Shown here piece after piece: positions 56,828 to 64,000 of a stretch of DNA of 64,000 nucleotides (position 1 is its first letter; every line of letters begins with the position of its first letter). A program made the position numbers and the translations under genes. The DNA comes from Thermomicrobiales bacterium (lineage in GTDB: Bacteria > Chloroflexota > Chloroflexia > Thermomicrobiales > UBA6265): positions 444,023 through 508,022 of the forward strand of contig JAHBVL010000002.1 in NCBI GenBank assembly GCA_019637585.1. The letters are read 5' to 3'. Below the pieces are notes generated by a model, which made no database searches, was not told the origin of the DNA, and worked only from the letters and a program-made list of their open reading frames with translations.

Positions 56828-57439
56828 ATGTCGAGACCGCCGGCAACTAAAGCCTCCAGCGAGCCAGTCGACGAGCAACCCGGCTCCTACGCCCTGCTTG
56901 GGTTGATCGAGCAGGCTGGCGGGAGCTCGCATGGCTACTCGCTGCTCCAGGAATTCGTTCCCGGCAAACCGCTGGCCGACATCATCCAGCTCAACCCGTC
57001 GATGCTCTACCACCTCCTCAAACGGCTGGCTGCTCGCGAGTGGATCGTCATCGAGCAAACCGCCGGCGGCGCGCCACGATCGCGACAGCGCTGTCGCATC
57101 ACGCCGGCCGGCCGTGACGAGCTCACCCGCTGGATTCGCACCCCCGTCGCCCATACGCGGGAGCTGCGACTGGAATTTCTGGTCAAACTCGCGGTCGCGC
57201 GGATGATCTGTCCCGATCTGGAACCGGATCTGGTCGATGAGCAGATCACGCTCTGCCACTCCTGGCGGGATTCGATGGTCGTCGAGCTCGAGCAGCTGGG
57301 CGAGAAACCCGAAAGCTCGGCGGGATTCAAACCACTGGTGCTCTCATTGCGGCTCAATCAAACCGAATCAGCCTGCAGGTGGCTCGAAGATCTACTCCCC
57401 CAAAGAACCCTCTCCCGCGGTCGGGAGAGGGCAGGGTGA
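56828..57439 (+). CDS. PadR-family transcriptional regulator
   Basis: 203 residues. The winged-helix domain is YALLGLIEQAGGSSHGYSLLQEF, LNPSMLYHLLKRLAAREWIV and RRCRITPAGRDELTRWI-like; the helical C-terminal dimerisation half reaches about residue 190. The last dozen codons (TLSRGRERAG) and the stop lie inside the 34-bp repeat block, so the tail is repeat-derived. It follows the molybdate-linked operon after 42 bases on the same strand and may regulate it, but no operator was identified. Confidence 0.85.
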   Translation: MSRPPATKASSEPVDEQPGSYALLGLIEQAGGSSHGYSLLQEFVPGKPLADIIQLNPSMLYHLLKRLAAREWIVIEQTAGGAPRSRQRCRITPAGRDELTRWIRTPVAHTRELRLEFLVKLAVARMICPDLEPDLVDEQITLCHSWRDSMVVELEQLGEKPESSAGFKPLVLSLRLNQTESACRWLEDLLPQRTLSRGRERAG

Positions 57440-57503
57440 GGGATATTCCCGCGGTCGGGAGAGGGCAGGGTGAGGGATATTCCCGACCGCGGGAGAGGGT
57501 TCT
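57404..57503. repeat. Composite repeat element: 34-bp tandem units within a 23-bp inverted repeat
   Basis: Two 34-bp direct copies (57413-57446 and 57447-57480) are followed by a partial inverted unit. The outer 23 bases, 57404-57426, are the exact reverse complement of 57481-57503. The core CTCCCGCGGTCGGGAG is a strong hairpin. This looks like a REP/MITE-type element inserted at the 3' end of the PadR gene. Confidence 0.85.
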
Positions 57504-57515
57504 GGGGACTTGCGC

Positions 57516-57544
57516 TTGACAACAATTCCGCATTCGTTCATTAT
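57516..57544 (+). promoter_or_regulatory. Promoter of the ilvB operon
   Basis: TTGACA at 57516-57521, a 17-base spacer and CATTAT at 57539-57544. Predicted start near 57551, leaving a leader of about 250 bases before ilvB. Confidence 0.8.
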
Positions 57545-57599
57545 CCAACCATGCAGGGATTCACCTCTTTGCGACGCATTGTTGAGGATTTTTTTCGCT

Positions 57600-57695
57600 G
57601 TGGCGCATGTCTCATTGATTACCGGCCTCGTACTTATTGCGCTCCCCGACGGGAGCGTATGCGGTGCTGGAGGCCAGGAGTCCAGTGAGAAGTAG
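57600..57695 (+). CDS. ilvB leader peptide rich in Val, Leu and Ile
   Basis: 31 residues from GTG at 57600 (VAHVSLITGLVLIALPDGSV ...), or 38 from TTG at 57579. GAGG at 57584-57587 is the only ribosome-site-like sequence. Twelve consecutive residues starting at the fourth hold eight branched-chain residues. The stop TAG at 57693-57695 precedes a complete intrinsic terminator. This is the classic layout of an amino-acid attenuator; the exact start is uncertain. Confidence 0.65.
   Translation: MAHVSLITGLVLIALPDGSVCGAGGQESSEK
57640..57657 (+). promoter_or_regulatory. Attenuator stem 1 in the ilvB leader
   Basis: CGCTCCC (57640-57646) pairs with GGGAGCG (57651-57657), loop CGAC. The stem begins right after the branched-chain codons, so a ribosome stalled on them would cover its left arm. 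Confidence 0.55.
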
Positions 57696-57723
57696 ACAAC
57701 CGAGTTAACTGAGATTCTGATTG

Positions 57724-57750
57724 GCCTCCCGACGACTGGGAGGCTTTTTT
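57724..57750 (+). terminator. Intrinsic terminator of the ilvB attenuator
   Basis: GCCTCCC (57724-57730) and GGGAGGC (57738-57744) with a seven-base loop, followed by six T residues. It ends 50 bases before the ilvB start. GGAGGCC at 57669-57675 can pair with GGCCTCC at 57723-57729 and so act as an antiterminator. Confidence 0.88.
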
Positions 57751-57800
57751 AATGTCCGGCGTTCCCTGTGCAGGGAGCGGAGTTCCTGAGGAGGAGCGAT

Positions 57801-59579
57801 ATGTCCACCACCAAGACCGCGAGTTCTTCGGTGCTGCCCGGCAAGGCAGTGACGAATGGCAACTCCAACGGCACTGTATCGCCCCGGACCTCTCCGGAGA
57901 CTCTCACTGGCAGCCAGATCACCTGCCGGGCGCTCGAAGCCGAGGGTGTGGACGTCGTCTTTGGCTATCCCGGCGGTGCGGTGATCCCGCTCTACGATGC
58001 ATTGCCATCGGCCGGATTCCATCATGTGTTGACCCGGTTCGAGCAGTGGGCGGCGCTGGCTGCCGACGGGTATGCCCGCGCCACCGGCAAGGTCGGGGTT
58101 TGCATCGCCACCTCCGGACCGGGGGCGACAAACCTGGTCACCGGTCTGGCGAATTCGCAGCTCGATTCGATCCCGGTTGTGGCCATCACCGGTCAGGTCG
58201 GCCAGGCCATGATCGGTCTCGATGCCTTCCAGGAAACCGACATCACCGGCATCACCCTGCCGATCACCAAGCACAACTACCTGGTGCAATCGGTCGAGGA
58301 CATCGCCCCGACGATTCGGGAAGCCTTCTACCTGGCACGGTCGGGACGACCGGGACCAGTGCTGGTCGATATCCCCAAGAATCTCTTCCAGGCGTCGGGC
58401 AAGTACGTGCCCGCGGCGGTTCGGGAGCGACGGGGATACCAGCCGACGACCACCCCCAACCAGCGCCAGGTGCGGATGGCGGCGGAATTGCTGAACAACG
58501 CCAAGCGGCCATTGATCATGGCCGGACACGGCATTCTGATCTCAGGCGCCGAGGATTCCTTCGCCAAGCTGGTCGATCAGACCGGCGTGCCAGTGATCTT
58601 CACCCTGCTGGGACAGGGCTCCCTGCCCGAATCACATCCGCAGGCACTCGGTTTGATGGGCATGCACGGTCATCGCCACGTCAACCGGGCGCTGGAAGAA
58701 TGTGACGTGCTGGTCAATATCGGCGCCAGATTCGACGATCGGGCCACTGGCAAGGTCGCCGAGTTCGCACCGAAAGCGAAGGTCGTTCATGTCGACATCG
58801 ATCCGGCCGAGATCGGCAAGAATGTCCACACCGACGTTCCCGTGGTTGGCGACGCCCGCCAGGTGATCAATGTCATGCTGCAGGAGGTCGAGCCCCGGTC
58901 GCATGACGCCTGGCTGGCCTGGATCGACAGCCAGCGGGACACCGCACTGGAAGCGGCGCTGGAGGACCGGCCCGACTGGCCCGAGCCTTACACAATCATC
59001 AAAGCGCTCGGCCAGGCGACCAGTCACGATGCAATCTTCACCACAGACGTCGGTCAGCATCAGATGTGGGCAGCTCAGCACCTCGGTCTCGAGCGACCGA
59101 ACCGCTGGCTCACCTCCGGTGGTCTGGGCACGATGGGCTACGGTCTGCCATCGGCGGTCGGAGCCAAGATCGGCCGCCCGGATCTGGAGGTCTGGACGAT
59201 CGTCGGCGACGGCGGATTCCAGATGTCGCTCAACGAGCTGGCCACCTGCGTTCAGGAGAAGCTCGATGTTCGCATCGCCGTTATCAACAACGGCTATCTG
59301 GGCATGGTCCGGCAGTGGCAGGATCTCTTCCACGCCAAGAACTATTCGGAAGTCGAGATCTATGGACCCGACTTCGTGAAGCTGGCCGAAGCCTATGGCG
59401 CCACGGGCTTTCGCGTGACCAAGGATTCGGAGATACTGCCGACAATCCAGAAGGCGCGGGAAACTGCGGGACCGGTGGTCATCGACTTCGTCATCGAACC
59501 AGAGGCGAATGTCTGGCCCATCGTTCCGCCGGGAGCGAGCAATTCCGACATGATGCTGCACCGCTTCGAGGACCACTGA
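57801..59579 (+). CDS. ilvB: Acetolactate synthase, catalytic subunit
   Basis: 592 residues from the ATG at 57801, preceded by GAGGAGGAGCG; an 11-residue longer frame is rejected. Condenses two pyruvates, or pyruvate and 2-oxobutyrate, using thiamine diphosphate and FAD. The N-terminal GYPGGAVIPLYDAL holds the oxyanion region; the catalytic Glu is in TRFEQWAALAADGYARA; SGPGATNLVTGLA follows; the thiamine-binding segment is GDGGFQMSLNELATC. The residues around the Glu (FEQWAAL) differ from the common HEQ.A.H. A 25-residue Ser/Thr-rich N-terminal tail is present. First structural gene of the operon. Confidence 0.96.
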   Translation: MSTTKTASSSVLPGKAVTNGNSNGTVSPRTSPETLTGSQITCRALEAEGVDVVFGYPGGAVIPLYDALPSAGFHHVLTRFEQWAALAADGYARATGKVGVCIATSGPGATNLVTGLANSQLDSIPVVAITGQVGQAMIGLDAFQETDITGITLPITKHNYLVQSVEDIAPTIREAFYLARSGRPGPVLVDIPKNLFQASGKYVPAAVRERRGYQPTTTPNQRQVRMAAELLNNAKRPLIMAGHGILISGAEDSFAKLVDQTGVPVIFTLLGQGSLPESHPQALGLMGMHGHRHVNRALEECDVLVNIGARFDDRATGKVAEFAPKAKVVHVDIDPAEIGKNVHTDVPVVGDARQVINVMLQEVEPRSHDAWLAWIDSQRDTALEAALEDRPDWPEPYTIIKALGQATSHDAIFTTDVGQHQMWAAQHLGLERPNRWLTSGGLGTMGYGLPSAVGAKIGRPDLEVWTIVGDGGFQMSLNELATCVQEKLDVRIAVINNGYLGMVRQWQDLFHAKNYSEVEIYGPDFVKLAEAYGATGFRVTKDSEILPTIQKARETAGPVVIDFVIEPEANVWPIVPPGASNSDMMLHRFEDH

Positions 59580-59605
59580 TGTCGAACCAAAACCCGTACG
59601 GCATC

Positions 59606-59707
59606 CGTCATCCTGAGCGCAGCGAAGGATCTCCTGCCGCAGCAGTTCTCTTGGAGGCGACGTTCTCTGAAGCCAACGAGAGATTCATCACGTCATTCAG
59701 AATGACG
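59606..59707. repeat. REP-like sequence between ilvB and ilvN
   Basis: Left part CGTCATCCTGAGCGCAGCGA at 59606 and right part CGTCATTCAGAATGACG at 59691-59707 (a perfect palindrome apart from its odd centre) share the CGTCATYC end. The left sequence resembles a dispersed repeat found in many bacterial genomes. It fills most of the 151-base gap inside the operon. Confidence 0.6.
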
Positions 59708-59730
59708 AACACGAACATCAGGAGCCGAAC

Positions 59731-60276
59731 ATGAACCGTCCACATCTGCTGGTTGTCATGGTGGAAGACCATCCCGGCGTTCTGAACAGGGTTGTCTCCC
59801 TGCTACGGCGGCGATCGATCAATATCGATTCGATCACCGTCGGGCATTCCGAGCAGCCGGGTGTTTCCCGGATCACCCTCGTCGTGCCGGGGACCGACGA
59901 CGATATCGAGCAGGCGACCAAGCAGCTCTACAAGCTGCTGGAGGTGCTCAAAGTCACCGACGTGACCGACCTGCCGGTGGTCTCCCACGAGATGGCGCTG
60001 ATCAAAGTGTCGGCCAAAGCGCAGCACCGGCAGGAGATTCTGCTGATCGCCCAGATGTTCAACGCTCGCGTCATCGACGCCAGCCCGAACACCCTGCTGC
60101 TGGAAATGACCGGCCCGGAGGACCAGGTCGACTCGCTGCTGGCAATGCTGCGATCATTCGGCATCCGGGAGCTGGTCCGTACCGGGTCGATTGCCATGAC
60201 GCGGGGAAATCAGCAGATTTCCGGCAAGGGATTGCACAATGGTGTAGCGCCCACCGTAGCAGTAGGCGCCAACTGA
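59731..60276 (+). CDS. ilvN: Acetolactate synthase, regulatory subunit
   Basis: 181 residues with an AGGAG site. The ACT domain is [44 protein letters not shown], followed by the C-terminal acetolactate synthase small-subunit domain ([21 protein letters not shown]). The last 20 residues are a Gly/Ala tail. Binds IlvB, stimulates it and confers valine feedback inhibition. Confidence 0.95.
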
Positions 60277-60346: not shown

Positions 60347-61357
60347 GTGCCGGCAACCATCTACTACGATTCTGACGCCAGTCTCGCCACACTTCAGGGC
60401 AAAACAGTCGCCGTCATCGGATACGGAAGTCAGGGCCACGCCCATGCCCAGAACCTGCGCGATTCCGGGGTCAAGGTCGTCGTTGGTCTTCATGAAGGAA
60501 GCAAGAGCAAGGCGAAAGCCGAGGCCGACGGCTTCGAAGTGTTGGCCGTTGCTGATGCCGCCAAAGCCGCCGACATCATCATGATCGTGATTCCCGACCA
60601 GACACAGGGCAAGGTCTACCGCGATGAGATCGCCCCGAATCTGACGGCCGGCAAAACGCTGATGTTTGCCCACGGTTTCAACATCCACTTCGGGCAGGTG
60701 CAACCACCCGCCAATGTCGACGTTGTCATGATCGCTCCCAAGAGCCCGGGCCACCGCCTGCGAGAGCTCTACACCGAGGGAGTTGGCGTTCCCGCCTTGA
60801 TCGCGGTCCACCAGGACGCGAGCGGGCATGCAAAGGAGACCGGGCTGGCGTATGCGAAGGGCCTCGGCTCGACGCGCGCCGGCGTTCTTGAGACCACCTT
60901 CAAGGAAGAGACCGAAACCGACCTCTTCGGCGAACAGGCGATTCTCTGTGGAGGCGTCTCCGCCCTCGTCGAAGCGGGATTCGACACTCTCGTCGCCGCC
61001 GGTTATCAGCCGGAAGTGGCCTATTTCGAATGCCTGCACGAACTGAAGCTGATCGTCGACCTCTTCTATACCGGTGGCCTGTCGTACATGCGCTACTCGG
61101 TGAGCGACACCGCGGAGTATGGGGACTACACCGCCGGTCCGAAGATCGTCGATGATCACACGCGAGAGGCCATGAAGGGTCTGCTCGCCGACATTCAGAG
61201 CGGCAAGTGGGCGAAGGAATGGATCGACGAGAACGAGTCGGGACGGGGGAACTTCCTTTCCCAGCGCGATCAGCACGCCTCCACCGAAATCGAAACCGTC
61301 GGCAAGGGCCTGCGCGACATGATGCCGTTCCTGCATCCCGGCAAGGCCCCTGCCTGA
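60347..61357 (+). CDS. ilvC: Ketol-acid reductoisomerase
   Basis: 336 residues from a GTG preceded by AGGAAGG. Class I (short) enzyme: Rossmann motif [21 protein letters not shown], then [27 protein letters not shown], and the metal-binding [12 protein letters not shown] and [12 protein letters not shown]. Converts acetolactate to dihydroxyisovalerate with magnesium and NAD(P)H. Gap to leuA only 25 bases. Confidence 0.97.
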
Positions 61358-61382: not shown

Positions 61383-62954
61383 ATGACTACGGAGTCAGAC
61401 GTAAAGAACCGAATCTGGATTTTCGACACGACGTTGCGTGACGGCGAGCAATCGCCGGGCGCAACGATGACGGTCGAGGAAAAACTCGAAGTCGCCGACG
61501 CGCTGGTCGAGCTGGGTGTCGACATCATCGAAGCCGGTTTTCCGGCGGCATCGCCCGGCGACTTCGAAGCGGTCAAGCTCATCGCCGCGCGCGTGAAGGG
61601 AGCCCGGGTCGCCGGGCTCGCTCGCGCCAACCGGTCCGATATCGAGCAGTGCGCGAAAGCCATCGAACCCGCCGAGCAATCGCGGATTCACACCTTTATC
61701 GCCACGTCGGACATTCATCTCCAGCACAAACTCCGGATGAGCCGGGAAGAAGTGCTGGAGCGGGTGTCGGAAATGGTCGCGCTGGCCCGGTCGTTCACCG
61801 ACAATGTCGAGTTCTCGGCCGAGGATGCCACGCGTTCCGATTGGGACTACCTCGTGGAGGTCTTTTCCCGCGCGATCGAATCGGGCGCGACCACGCTGAA
61901 TGTGCCGGACACCGTCGGATACACGACGCCGGCCGAGTACGCGGCACTGATGGCGCATTTGCAGGAGCACACGCCGGGTATCGAGAACGTGATCATCTCG
62001 GTCCACTGCCACAACGACCTGGGCATGGGAACGGCGAATACGCTGGCCGCCATCGCTGCCGGCGCCCGCCAGGCCGAGGTAACGATCAATGGCATCGGTG
62101 AACGGGCCGGCAACACGGCTCTCGAAGAAGTGGTGATGGCTCTGGCCACGCGGGGCGACAAGTTCGGCGGCGCCTGGACGAATGTCCGCAAGGACCGGAT
62201 CGTCCCCAGCAGCCGGCTCGTTTCCGGCATCACCGGACTCAATGTCCAGGTGAACAAAGCGATCGTTGGCGAAAACGCTTTCGCCCACGAAGCCGGCATC
62301 CATCAGGATGGCATGCTCAAGGAGCGCACCACGTACGAGATCATGAATCCGGAAGATGTCGGCTGGGAGGGAACCAAGCTCGTGCTCGGCAAGCACTCCG
62401 GCCGGGCCGGATTCCGCAACGCCCTCGCCGAACTGGGATTCAAGCTCGACGACGAGGAGATGCAGGCAGCCTACGAGAGCTTCCTGCTCCTCGCCGACAA
62501 GAAGAAGCGCGTCACCGCCGCCGACCTGATCGCCCTCGTGCGCAATCAGCAGCAAACGCGGGACGATGTCTATCACCTGCGCCAGTGGCGGGTCGATATC
62601 GCCAGTGGCGAACCGGCCAATGCCTCGGTAGTGCTCTCCTATGGAGACGTCCAACTCGCTGGCGACGCCGAAGGGAATGGACCAGTCGATGCCCTCCTGC
62701 AGGCCATCGATGCGGCCACGAGCATTCAGACGACGCTCGAGTACTACCAGGTCGAAGCAGTGACCCCCGGCGAAGACGCGCAGGGCCAGGTGCATGTGCG
62801 CATCCGGTCGGAGGGCCAGCTCTTCACCGGGCATGGACTCGCCACCGACATCGTCGAAGCAAGCGCTCGCGCCTATCTCGACGCGCTGGGCAAGCTGAGA
62901 GCAGGCGATGCGTCGACAGTCCTGGCGGGATCATCCGTCTCTCGCTGGGGATAG
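61383..62954 (+). CDS. leuA: 2-Isopropylmalate synthase
   Basis: 523 residues. TIM-barrel part: WIFDTTLRDGEQSPGATMTV with catalytic Arg-Asp, EFSAEDATRSD, VHCHNDLGMGTANTLAA with metal-binding His residues, and NGIGERAGNTALEEV. The linker FAHEAGIHQDGMLKE and the C-terminal LeuA dimer domain (about 390-515), the site of leucine feedback, are present. First step of leucine synthesis from 2-oxoisovalerate and acetyl-CoA. Confidence 0.97.
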   Translation: MTTESDVKNRIWIFDTTLRDGEQSPGATMTVEEKLEVADALVELGVDIIEAGFPAASPGDFEAVKLIAARVKGARVAGLARANRSDIEQCAKAIEPAEQSRIHTFIATSDIHLQHKLRMSREEVLERVSEMVALARSFTDNVEFSAEDATRSDWDYLVEVFSRAIESGATTLNVPDTVGYTTPAEYAALMAHLQEHTPGIENVIISVHCHNDLGMGTANTLAAIAAGARQAEVTINGIGERAGNTALEEVVMALATRGDKFGGAWTNVRKDRIVPSSRLVSGITGLNVQVNKAIVGENAFAHEAGIHQDGMLKERTTYEIMNPEDVGWEGTKLVLGKHSGRAGFRNALAELGFKLDDEEMQAAYESFLLLADKKKRVTAADLIALVRNQQQTRDDVYHLRQWRVDIASGEPANASVVLSYGDVQLAGDAEGNGPVDALLQAIDAATSIQTTLEYYQVEAVTPGEDAQGQVHVRIRSEGQLFTGHGLATDIVEASARAYLDALGKLRAGDASTVLAGSSVSRWG

Positions 62955-63038
62955 CAGCATGACTCCGCGGACCTCGCATTCGGGCAGGTCCGCACACTTC
63001 GGAATGTATTGGTGGAGAGCCTTCGAAGGAATAATCGC

Positions 63039-64000
63039 GTGACCGCCACACCACGAACGCTCAGTGACAAACTCTGGGAACGACACATCGTCCATTCGGC
63101 CCCGGGGGAGCCAGATCTCCTCTACATCGACCTGCATCTCGTTCATGAGGTGACCTCCCCCCAGGCATTCGACGGTCTGCGCATGCACGGCCGGCAGGTC
63201 CGCCGTCCCGATCTGACGGTCGCCACCGCCGACCACAATGTGCCGACCATCCACATCGACCAGCCGATCGTCGATCCGATTTCGGCGAAGCAGGTGTCGG
63301 CACTGTCGAAGAATTGCACGGAGTTCGGCATCACCCTCTACCCGATGGGACACCAGCGACAGGGGATCGTGCACGTCATCGGCCCCGAACAGGGTCTGAC
63401 GCAACCGGGGATGACGATCGTCTGCGGCGACAGCCACACCTCGACCCACGGCGCGTTCGGAGCACTGGCATTTGGCATTGGCACCAGTGAGGTCGAGCAC
63501 GTCCTGGCCACCCAGACCCTTCCCTCGATGCGGCCGAAAACGATGTCGATCGAGGTCAACGGCGATCTGTCGCCCGGTGTCACGGCCAAGGATGTCATCC
63601 TGGCCATCATCGGCAAGATCGGCACCGGCGGCGGGATTGGACACACCATCGAGTACCGTGGCTCGACGATCAGGTCCCTCTCGATGGAGGGGCGGATGAC
63701 GATCTGCAATATGTCGATCGAAGCCGGCGCACGAGCGGGGATGATCGCCCCGGACGATAGCACGTTCGCCTACGTCGAAGGTCGTCCCCATGCGCCGAAG
63801 GGACGAGATTGGGAGAAAGCTCTCGATGACTGGCGCTCCCTGCCCACCGACGAGGGAGCGACATTCGACACCTACGTCGAGCTCGATGGAGCGGCACTGC
63901 GGCCCTATGTGTCGTGGGGAACAAACCCGGGACAGGTCGTGTCGATCGATGGCGTCGTGCCCGATCCAGGCTCGATCGATGACCCGAGAACCCGCGATGC
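63039..64000 (+). CDS. leuC: 3-Isopropylmalate dehydratase large subunit (truncated by the window)
   Basis: About 320 residues visible from a GTG at 63039 with AAGGA upstream. [50 protein letters not shown], and [20 protein letters not shown] are LeuC blocks. The first iron-sulfur region is included only in part; the cysteines near residues 350-410 are beyond the window. Isomerises isopropylmalate with LeuD, expected just downstream. Confidence 0.95.

Follow-up and report, generated by a model that had tools for sequence, protein, structure and literature searches.

The window analysed here, a 64,000-nucleotide stretch of DNA from a Thermomicrobiales bacterium (phylum Chloroflexota), ends in a branched-chain amino acid operon, and the question that this locus raises is how the leader in front of the operon (57516-57800) might control its transcription. 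The operon consists, on the plus strand, of ilvB (57801..59579) and ilvN (59731..60276), for the large and small subunits of acetolactate synthase, ilvC (ketol-acid reductoisomerase, 60347..61357), leuA (2-isopropylmalate synthase, 61383..62954) and leuC (3-isopropylmalate dehydratase large subunit, 63009..63998, continuing past the window end); the gene order given in the initial annotation was checked and is right. The 150 nt gap between ilvB and ilvN (59580-59730) includes a stretch that reads HPERSEGS and resembles an intergenic repeat. Judging from its sequence and modelled folds, the leader is very probably a ribosome-mediated transcription attenuator of ilvBNC-leuAC that would sense charged branched-chain tRNAs, chiefly those of leucine and valine. 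What is seen comprises the elements in the sequence, how well these are conserved, a bias in codon use and, in thermodynamic folds, mutually exclusive pairings that depend on the position of the ribosome.

Architecture of the leader

The leader opens with a predicted sigma-70-type promoter on the plus strand, TTGACA-17-CATTAT (57516..57544; TTGACA at 57516, CATTAT at 57544), which has 10 of 12 consensus matches, bearing out the near-consensus promoter of the initial annotation, and is the sole promoter-like site in 1.6 kb, compared to 0.3 sites in shuffles. Just 5' of the promoter, the 57406-57504 segment contains copies of CCCGCGGTCGGGAGAGGGCAGGGTGAGGGATATT in both tandem and inverted arrangement.

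The leader peptide frame, MAHVSLITGLVLIALPDGSVCGAGGQESSEK, occupies 57600..57695 (plus strand; 31 codons, GTG start, TAG stop) and translates from GTG57600 as M(V)AHVSLITGLVLIALPDGSVCGAGGQESSEK; counted from GTC57609, 8 of 12 codons specify Val, Leu or Ile, exactly the density claimed previously. GAGG at 57584..57587 (plus strand), 12 nt 5' of the GTG, is a possible Shine-Dalgarno sequence. Short frames in which Leu, Ile or Val take up 7 or more of 12 codons and a terminator follows are found a single time in the window and in 0 of 30 dinucleotide shuffles, and the leader folds with a z-score of -4.2 relative to shuffles.

The remaining parts, all on the plus strand, are three segments that can pair with one another and a terminator. 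Segment 1, GGCCTC (57624..57629), is the Gly-Leu codon pair inside the run itself; segment 2, GGAGGCC (57669..57675), is the antiterminator arm; segment 3, GGCCTCCC (57723..57730), is both the 5' arm of the terminator and the alternative partner of segment 2. The intrinsic terminator hairpin (57723..57750, with the stem at 57723-57745 and six T residues at 57745-57750) has a predicted energy of -15.6 kcal/mol; arm and terminator thus lie where they had been placed initially. Segment 1 pairs with GAGGCC (57670-57675), and this pairing surrounds a GUACU:GGUGC helix and a hairpin (57638..57659) that belong to the same 1:2 structure; alternatively, GGAGGCC pairs with GGCCTCC (57723-57729) of the terminator. 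The hairpin was the element initially proposed as stem 1: it is indeed present, but the segment that would sequester the arm is GGCCTC, which encloses that hairpin. Segments 1 and 3 are near-copies of each other, in keeping with a trp-type scheme, and in the folds of the window leader the 1:2, 2:3 and 3:4 pairings are mutually exclusive, 3:4 being the intrinsic terminator. No Rfam 15 family matches this leader in covariance model searches at gathering and permissive thresholds; in particular, a T-box was considered and rejected, RF00230 being without a match there.

Conservation of the leader in the family

IlvB was found in 29 of the 32 genomes of the family, and a covariance model of the leader (R1) matches all 29; because R1 was trained on 24 of these, only G003, G008, G021, G026 and G029 are outside its training set. 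The three family genomes without IlvB have no R1 match or a weak one. The leader frame is open in all aligned leaders, with a peptide core of LVL(I) followed by LPxGS, and these leaders have in common an invariant GTACTTA, a GCTCCC..GGGAGC hairpin, the arm and the terminator; in the window, the combined motif GTACTTA-N4-GCTCCC-N4-GGGAGC spans 57630..57656 (plus strand). The initial annotation had named loss of the Val/Leu/Ile run or of the alternative stems in relatives as the outcome that would speak against an attenuator; the aligned leaders retain both.

Among the aligned family leaders, the fraction of paired cells is 98.8% for the terminator, 93.5% for the hairpin, 78.5% for the basal 1:2 helix and 92.3% for the antiterminator, the latter dropping to 40-71% after sliding; in relatives, pairing of the GUACU helix is weak (55%). 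A test of covariation had been suggested for the three stems. Covariation exceeds expectation for the 1:2 and terminator stems taken together (13 cells with changes on both sides, compared to 5.9 in shuffles) but is almost nil for the antiterminator, with one both-side change, as is expected of three segments that share one sequence. At the sequence level, then, the antiterminator is supported by conservation, not by covariation.

The GTG start, initially regarded as the weakest part of the leader, gains support from the nearest relative (L002), in which a GTG is located exactly 10 codons 5' of the GTA, as in the window, and a GGAG-type site lies upstream of it at a distance similar to that of GAGG. 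Nearly all other relatives have an in-frame ATG 11-16 codons 5' of the GTA.

Predicted switching with ribosome position

In the mechanism that we infer, transcription would start at the predicted promoter, the frame would be translated in coupling with transcription, and the outcome would depend on amino acids as follows. With ample Leu-, Val- and Ile-tRNA, the ribosome would pass the control codons and reach the stop; segment 1 would then pair with GAGGCC, GGCCTCCC would stay free, and the terminator would halt transcription ahead of ilvB. When charged tRNA is scarce, the ribosome would stall on TTG-ATT, CTC-GTA-CTT-ATT or CTC, covering segment 1, so that GGAGGCC, left free, could capture GGCCTCC while the terminator's 3' arm has yet to be transcribed, and the polymerase would read through.

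We folded the transcript at the point where the polymerase has just left the terminator's 5' arm behind, with positions -15 to +15 relative to the ribosomal P site masked; such folds represent the equilibrium of a truncated RNA under an assumed footprint, not kinetics. For the window leader, the modelled probability of the antiterminator is 0.02 without a ribosome and 0.03 with the ribosome at the stop; it is 0.88-1.0 for every A-site codon in 57612-57648 and at most 0.5 from 57651 onward. The control region delimited in this manner, that is, the stretch of A-site codons where stalling yields the antiterminator in the folds, is TCA TTG ATT ACC GGC CTC GTA CTT ATT GCG CTC CCC GAC (57612..57650, plus strand) and coincides with the branched-chain run. 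In the masked folds, the window leader accordingly switches as initially predicted, with stalling on branched-chain codons favouring the antiterminator.

When the same calculation was applied to 24 family leaders, a ribosome placed at the CTT position gave a mean antiterminator probability of 0.85 (above 0.5 in 23 of 24) and one at the stop a mean of 0.03 (above 0.5 in one of 24); in most relatives, although not in the window leader, the mask at the stop hides segment 2, so that the latter value is partly geometric. Without a ribosome, the mean is 0.49 and the picture is mixed: the antiterminator forms in 12 of the 24, which suggests that termination in these relatives requires a ribosome at the stop. 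In 28 of 41 leaders outside the family, a ribosome on the run gave greater predicted sequestration of the terminator arm than a ribosome at the stop; a single leader showed the opposite trend. In the modelled folds, the contrast between stalled and stop-positioned ribosomes thus holds in relatives, with a mixed ribosome-free state.

Control codon bias and alternative explanations

The codons of the run are strongly biased. In 26 family leaders, Val is encoded by GTA in 35 of 39 cases, compared to 3.9% in the window genes; Leu by CTC or CTT in 82 of 91 (45% in the window genes) and by CTG in only 7 of 91 (43%); and Ile by ATT in 31 of 47 (21%), where the reference is the 34 window genes and the leader counts are non-independent through shared ancestry. 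In two relatives (L015 and L019), the register is shifted and the run reads GTA GTA GTA/GTC CTC CTT ATT, with the GTA, CTC, CTT and ATT codons as well as both stems retained, suggesting that it is the choice of codons that is favoured over a fixed base motif. Selective charging of isoacceptors is an established cause of such bias (PMC1183508), and the GTA and CTC/CTT preference in a high-GC genome offers a test case for selective charging beyond enterobacteria.

An alternative is that a translation-independent RNA element, namely, an aptamer for a small molecule or a protein formed by GTACTTA and the hairpin, drives the terminator, the frame being incidental. Indeed, at the base level, GTACTTA-N4-GCTCCC..GGGAGC is near-invariant over 24 leaders, beyond what the amino acids, the codons or the pairs alone demand, and a scan of 84,980 species genomes for this motif yielded 19 Chloroflexota records, the three other matches all lying within CRISPR repeats. 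However, every leader keeps the frame open and has a start some 10-16 codons upstream; the two shifted-register leaders lose the base motif and retain the rare codons; what distant leaders retain is limited to the codons, the arm and the terminator; which amino acid the run contains follows the gene (Leu with leuA, Phe with pheS); and no Rfam family matches. We therefore regard an aptamer as improbable. Conservation of the LVL(I)xLPxGS core could also be taken to mean that the nascent peptide (LVLI.LPxGS) arrests the ribosome, rather than a lack of charged tRNA; but the hairpin is built from the LP codons on one side and the GS codons on the other, so that pairing accounts for them, the GTA and CTC/CTT bias would be superfluous, and other families have runs of different sequence, all of which makes such arrest very unlikely. 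A constitutive leader, in which a chance hydrophobic frame precedes a plain terminator that fixes the basal level, deserves hardly any credence given the absence of the combination from the 30 shuffles and the retention of the element in 29 of 29 genomes and across the phylum. Attenuation by a ribosome stalled for lack of charged tRNA is the reading adopted below.

Related leaders across Chloroflexota

With an E-value threshold of 0.01 per genome, 79 of the 158 genomes searched at class level contain an R1 match, and 83 of 400 do at phylum level; a few false matches are to be expected at this threshold, some are evident, and about 80 matches were inspected. Among these, leaders with branched-chain runs most often precede ilvB. 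Others precede ilvD (L079, L080, L082, L114, L133, L136, L137), ilvE-type aminotransferase genes (L075, L119), cimA-like synthase genes (L074, L089, L100), leuS (L110) and, with Leu-only runs, leuA (L113, L125). In two genomes of family f8, runs of Phe with a terminator precede pheS (L083, AFFARSFFGF; L091, YGFFAFSFFGF). Four leaders precede a gene for an acetolactate-synthase-like TPP enzyme (FAGVNGGGVVHVAK; L063, L064, L067, L124); these come from family f43, with 4-5 branched-chain leaders per genome. In f43 and elsewhere, leaders also precede genes for PucR-type regulators (L061, L069, L072, L115).

Several weak R1 matches outside the family look false or are unexplained (L099, L102, L111, L112, L134, L135, L139), among them one in front of gltB (L118) and those in front of a methyltransferase gene in genus g96 (L077, L078, L121, L129). 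The g96 leader is strongly conserved and has a terminator, but an amino acid run is not evident in it.

Tandem arrangements with T-boxes

Of the 158 class genomes, 152 contain T-boxes (RF00230, E-value 0.001), and at ten Chloroflexia loci, a T-box lies directly 5' of a peptide attenuator: ahead of ilvB in five f8 genomes (L157-L161) and ahead of leuA in four genomes of family f3 (L152, L153, L155, L156). The tenth locus, L154, concerns leuS, and its peptide is unconvincing. Examination by eye of the RF00230 alignment and its neighbours placed GAA-CUC (leucine) at the specifier position in all ten, and at most of these loci, an obvious terminator closes the T-box ahead of the leader frame. In L157, the frame (..AILSLLVLGLIVLLRVANILGG) and the terminator are present but were missed by R1; they were sought because of the position of the T-box. 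In 20 relatives, Rfam searches returned only T-box, SAM, tRNA and RNase P matches, located elsewhere.

For the genome of the window itself, inspection of the ilvD-like gene, ileS, leuS and the other synthetase candidates revealed no comparable leader. T-boxes occur in this genome before thrS-like and ileS-like genes (L162, L171). This genome employs both types of sensors, each on different genes.

It appears likely that peptide attenuation is an old, phylum-wide layer of regulation in Chloroflexota that covers branched-chain, leucine and phenylalanine genes and that, in Chloroflexia, is arranged in series with leucine (CUC) T-boxes, each with its own terminator, so that one leader tests one tRNA twice. 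At such serial gates, the T-box would first sense uncharged tRNA, and the ribosome would then sense charged tRNA. The tandem arrangement in relatives is more surprising than the attenuator itself.

Comparison with known systems

The window leader is very probably a complete leader-peptide attenuator of a known mechanism in a lineage for which no description was found, and part of a phylum-wide set. It resembles the enterobacterial ilv, leu and trp attenuators in its frame of control codons, the 1:2, 2:3 and 3:4 segments, the intrinsic terminator and the matching biosynthetic operon, and, like Salmonella leu, has rare control codons (discussed in PMC1183508). Unlike in the enterobacterial attenuators, segment 1 consists of the control codons themselves, copied as segment 3 (GGCCTC(C)), and the leader uses GTA, CTC and CTT, comes from Chloroflexota and has no Rfam match.

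Also comparable are the ilvB leader-peptide motifs of Actinobacteria (PMC1262725) and those of Corynebacterium (ilvB-II), ilvB-OMG (41 examples), Leptospira ilvB and assorted phyla (PMC10272879): they likewise combine a short frame rich in Ile, Val and Leu with a choice between terminator and antiterminator before ilvB. As described, these belong to other lineages and are other motifs; the main descriptions in PMC10272879 and PMC1262725 name no Chloroflexota. In Streptomyces, altering the ilvB leader codons left regulation unchanged (PMC1262725), an observation that counts against an attenuator reading.

Published surveys record leader-peptide systems from Proteobacteria and Actinobacteria as well as from some Firmicutes (PMC2965389, PMC9413887, PMC1262725). 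A gamma-proteobacterial origin has been suggested for the known motifs (PMC3766115, PMC2965389), and T-boxes and leader peptides have been portrayed as mutually replacing systems; for Chloroflexi, surveys list T-boxes, not peptide attenuators (PMC2494555, PMC3766115). We found no earlier description of a peptide attenuator in Chloroflexota in the open-access literature, in agreement with the initial annotation. The wide use of such leaders in Chloroflexota, their matching specificity and the tandems argue for an older or repeated origin.

To our knowledge, the only precedent for a T-box combined with a leader peptide is rtpA (anti-TRAP) of B. subtilis, the leader of which, as reportedly described by Chen and Yanofsky in 2003 and 2004 (cited in PMC11255114), has a T-box and, after it, a Trp leader peptide that is said to act on translation initiation. 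Like rtpA, the ten tandem loci combine in a single leader two devices that sense the same tRNA; in contrast to rtpA, they have a transcription terminator for each gate and belong to leucine and ilv genes, and the window leader is without a T-box. The tandems are a natural system for comparing two sensors within one transcript.
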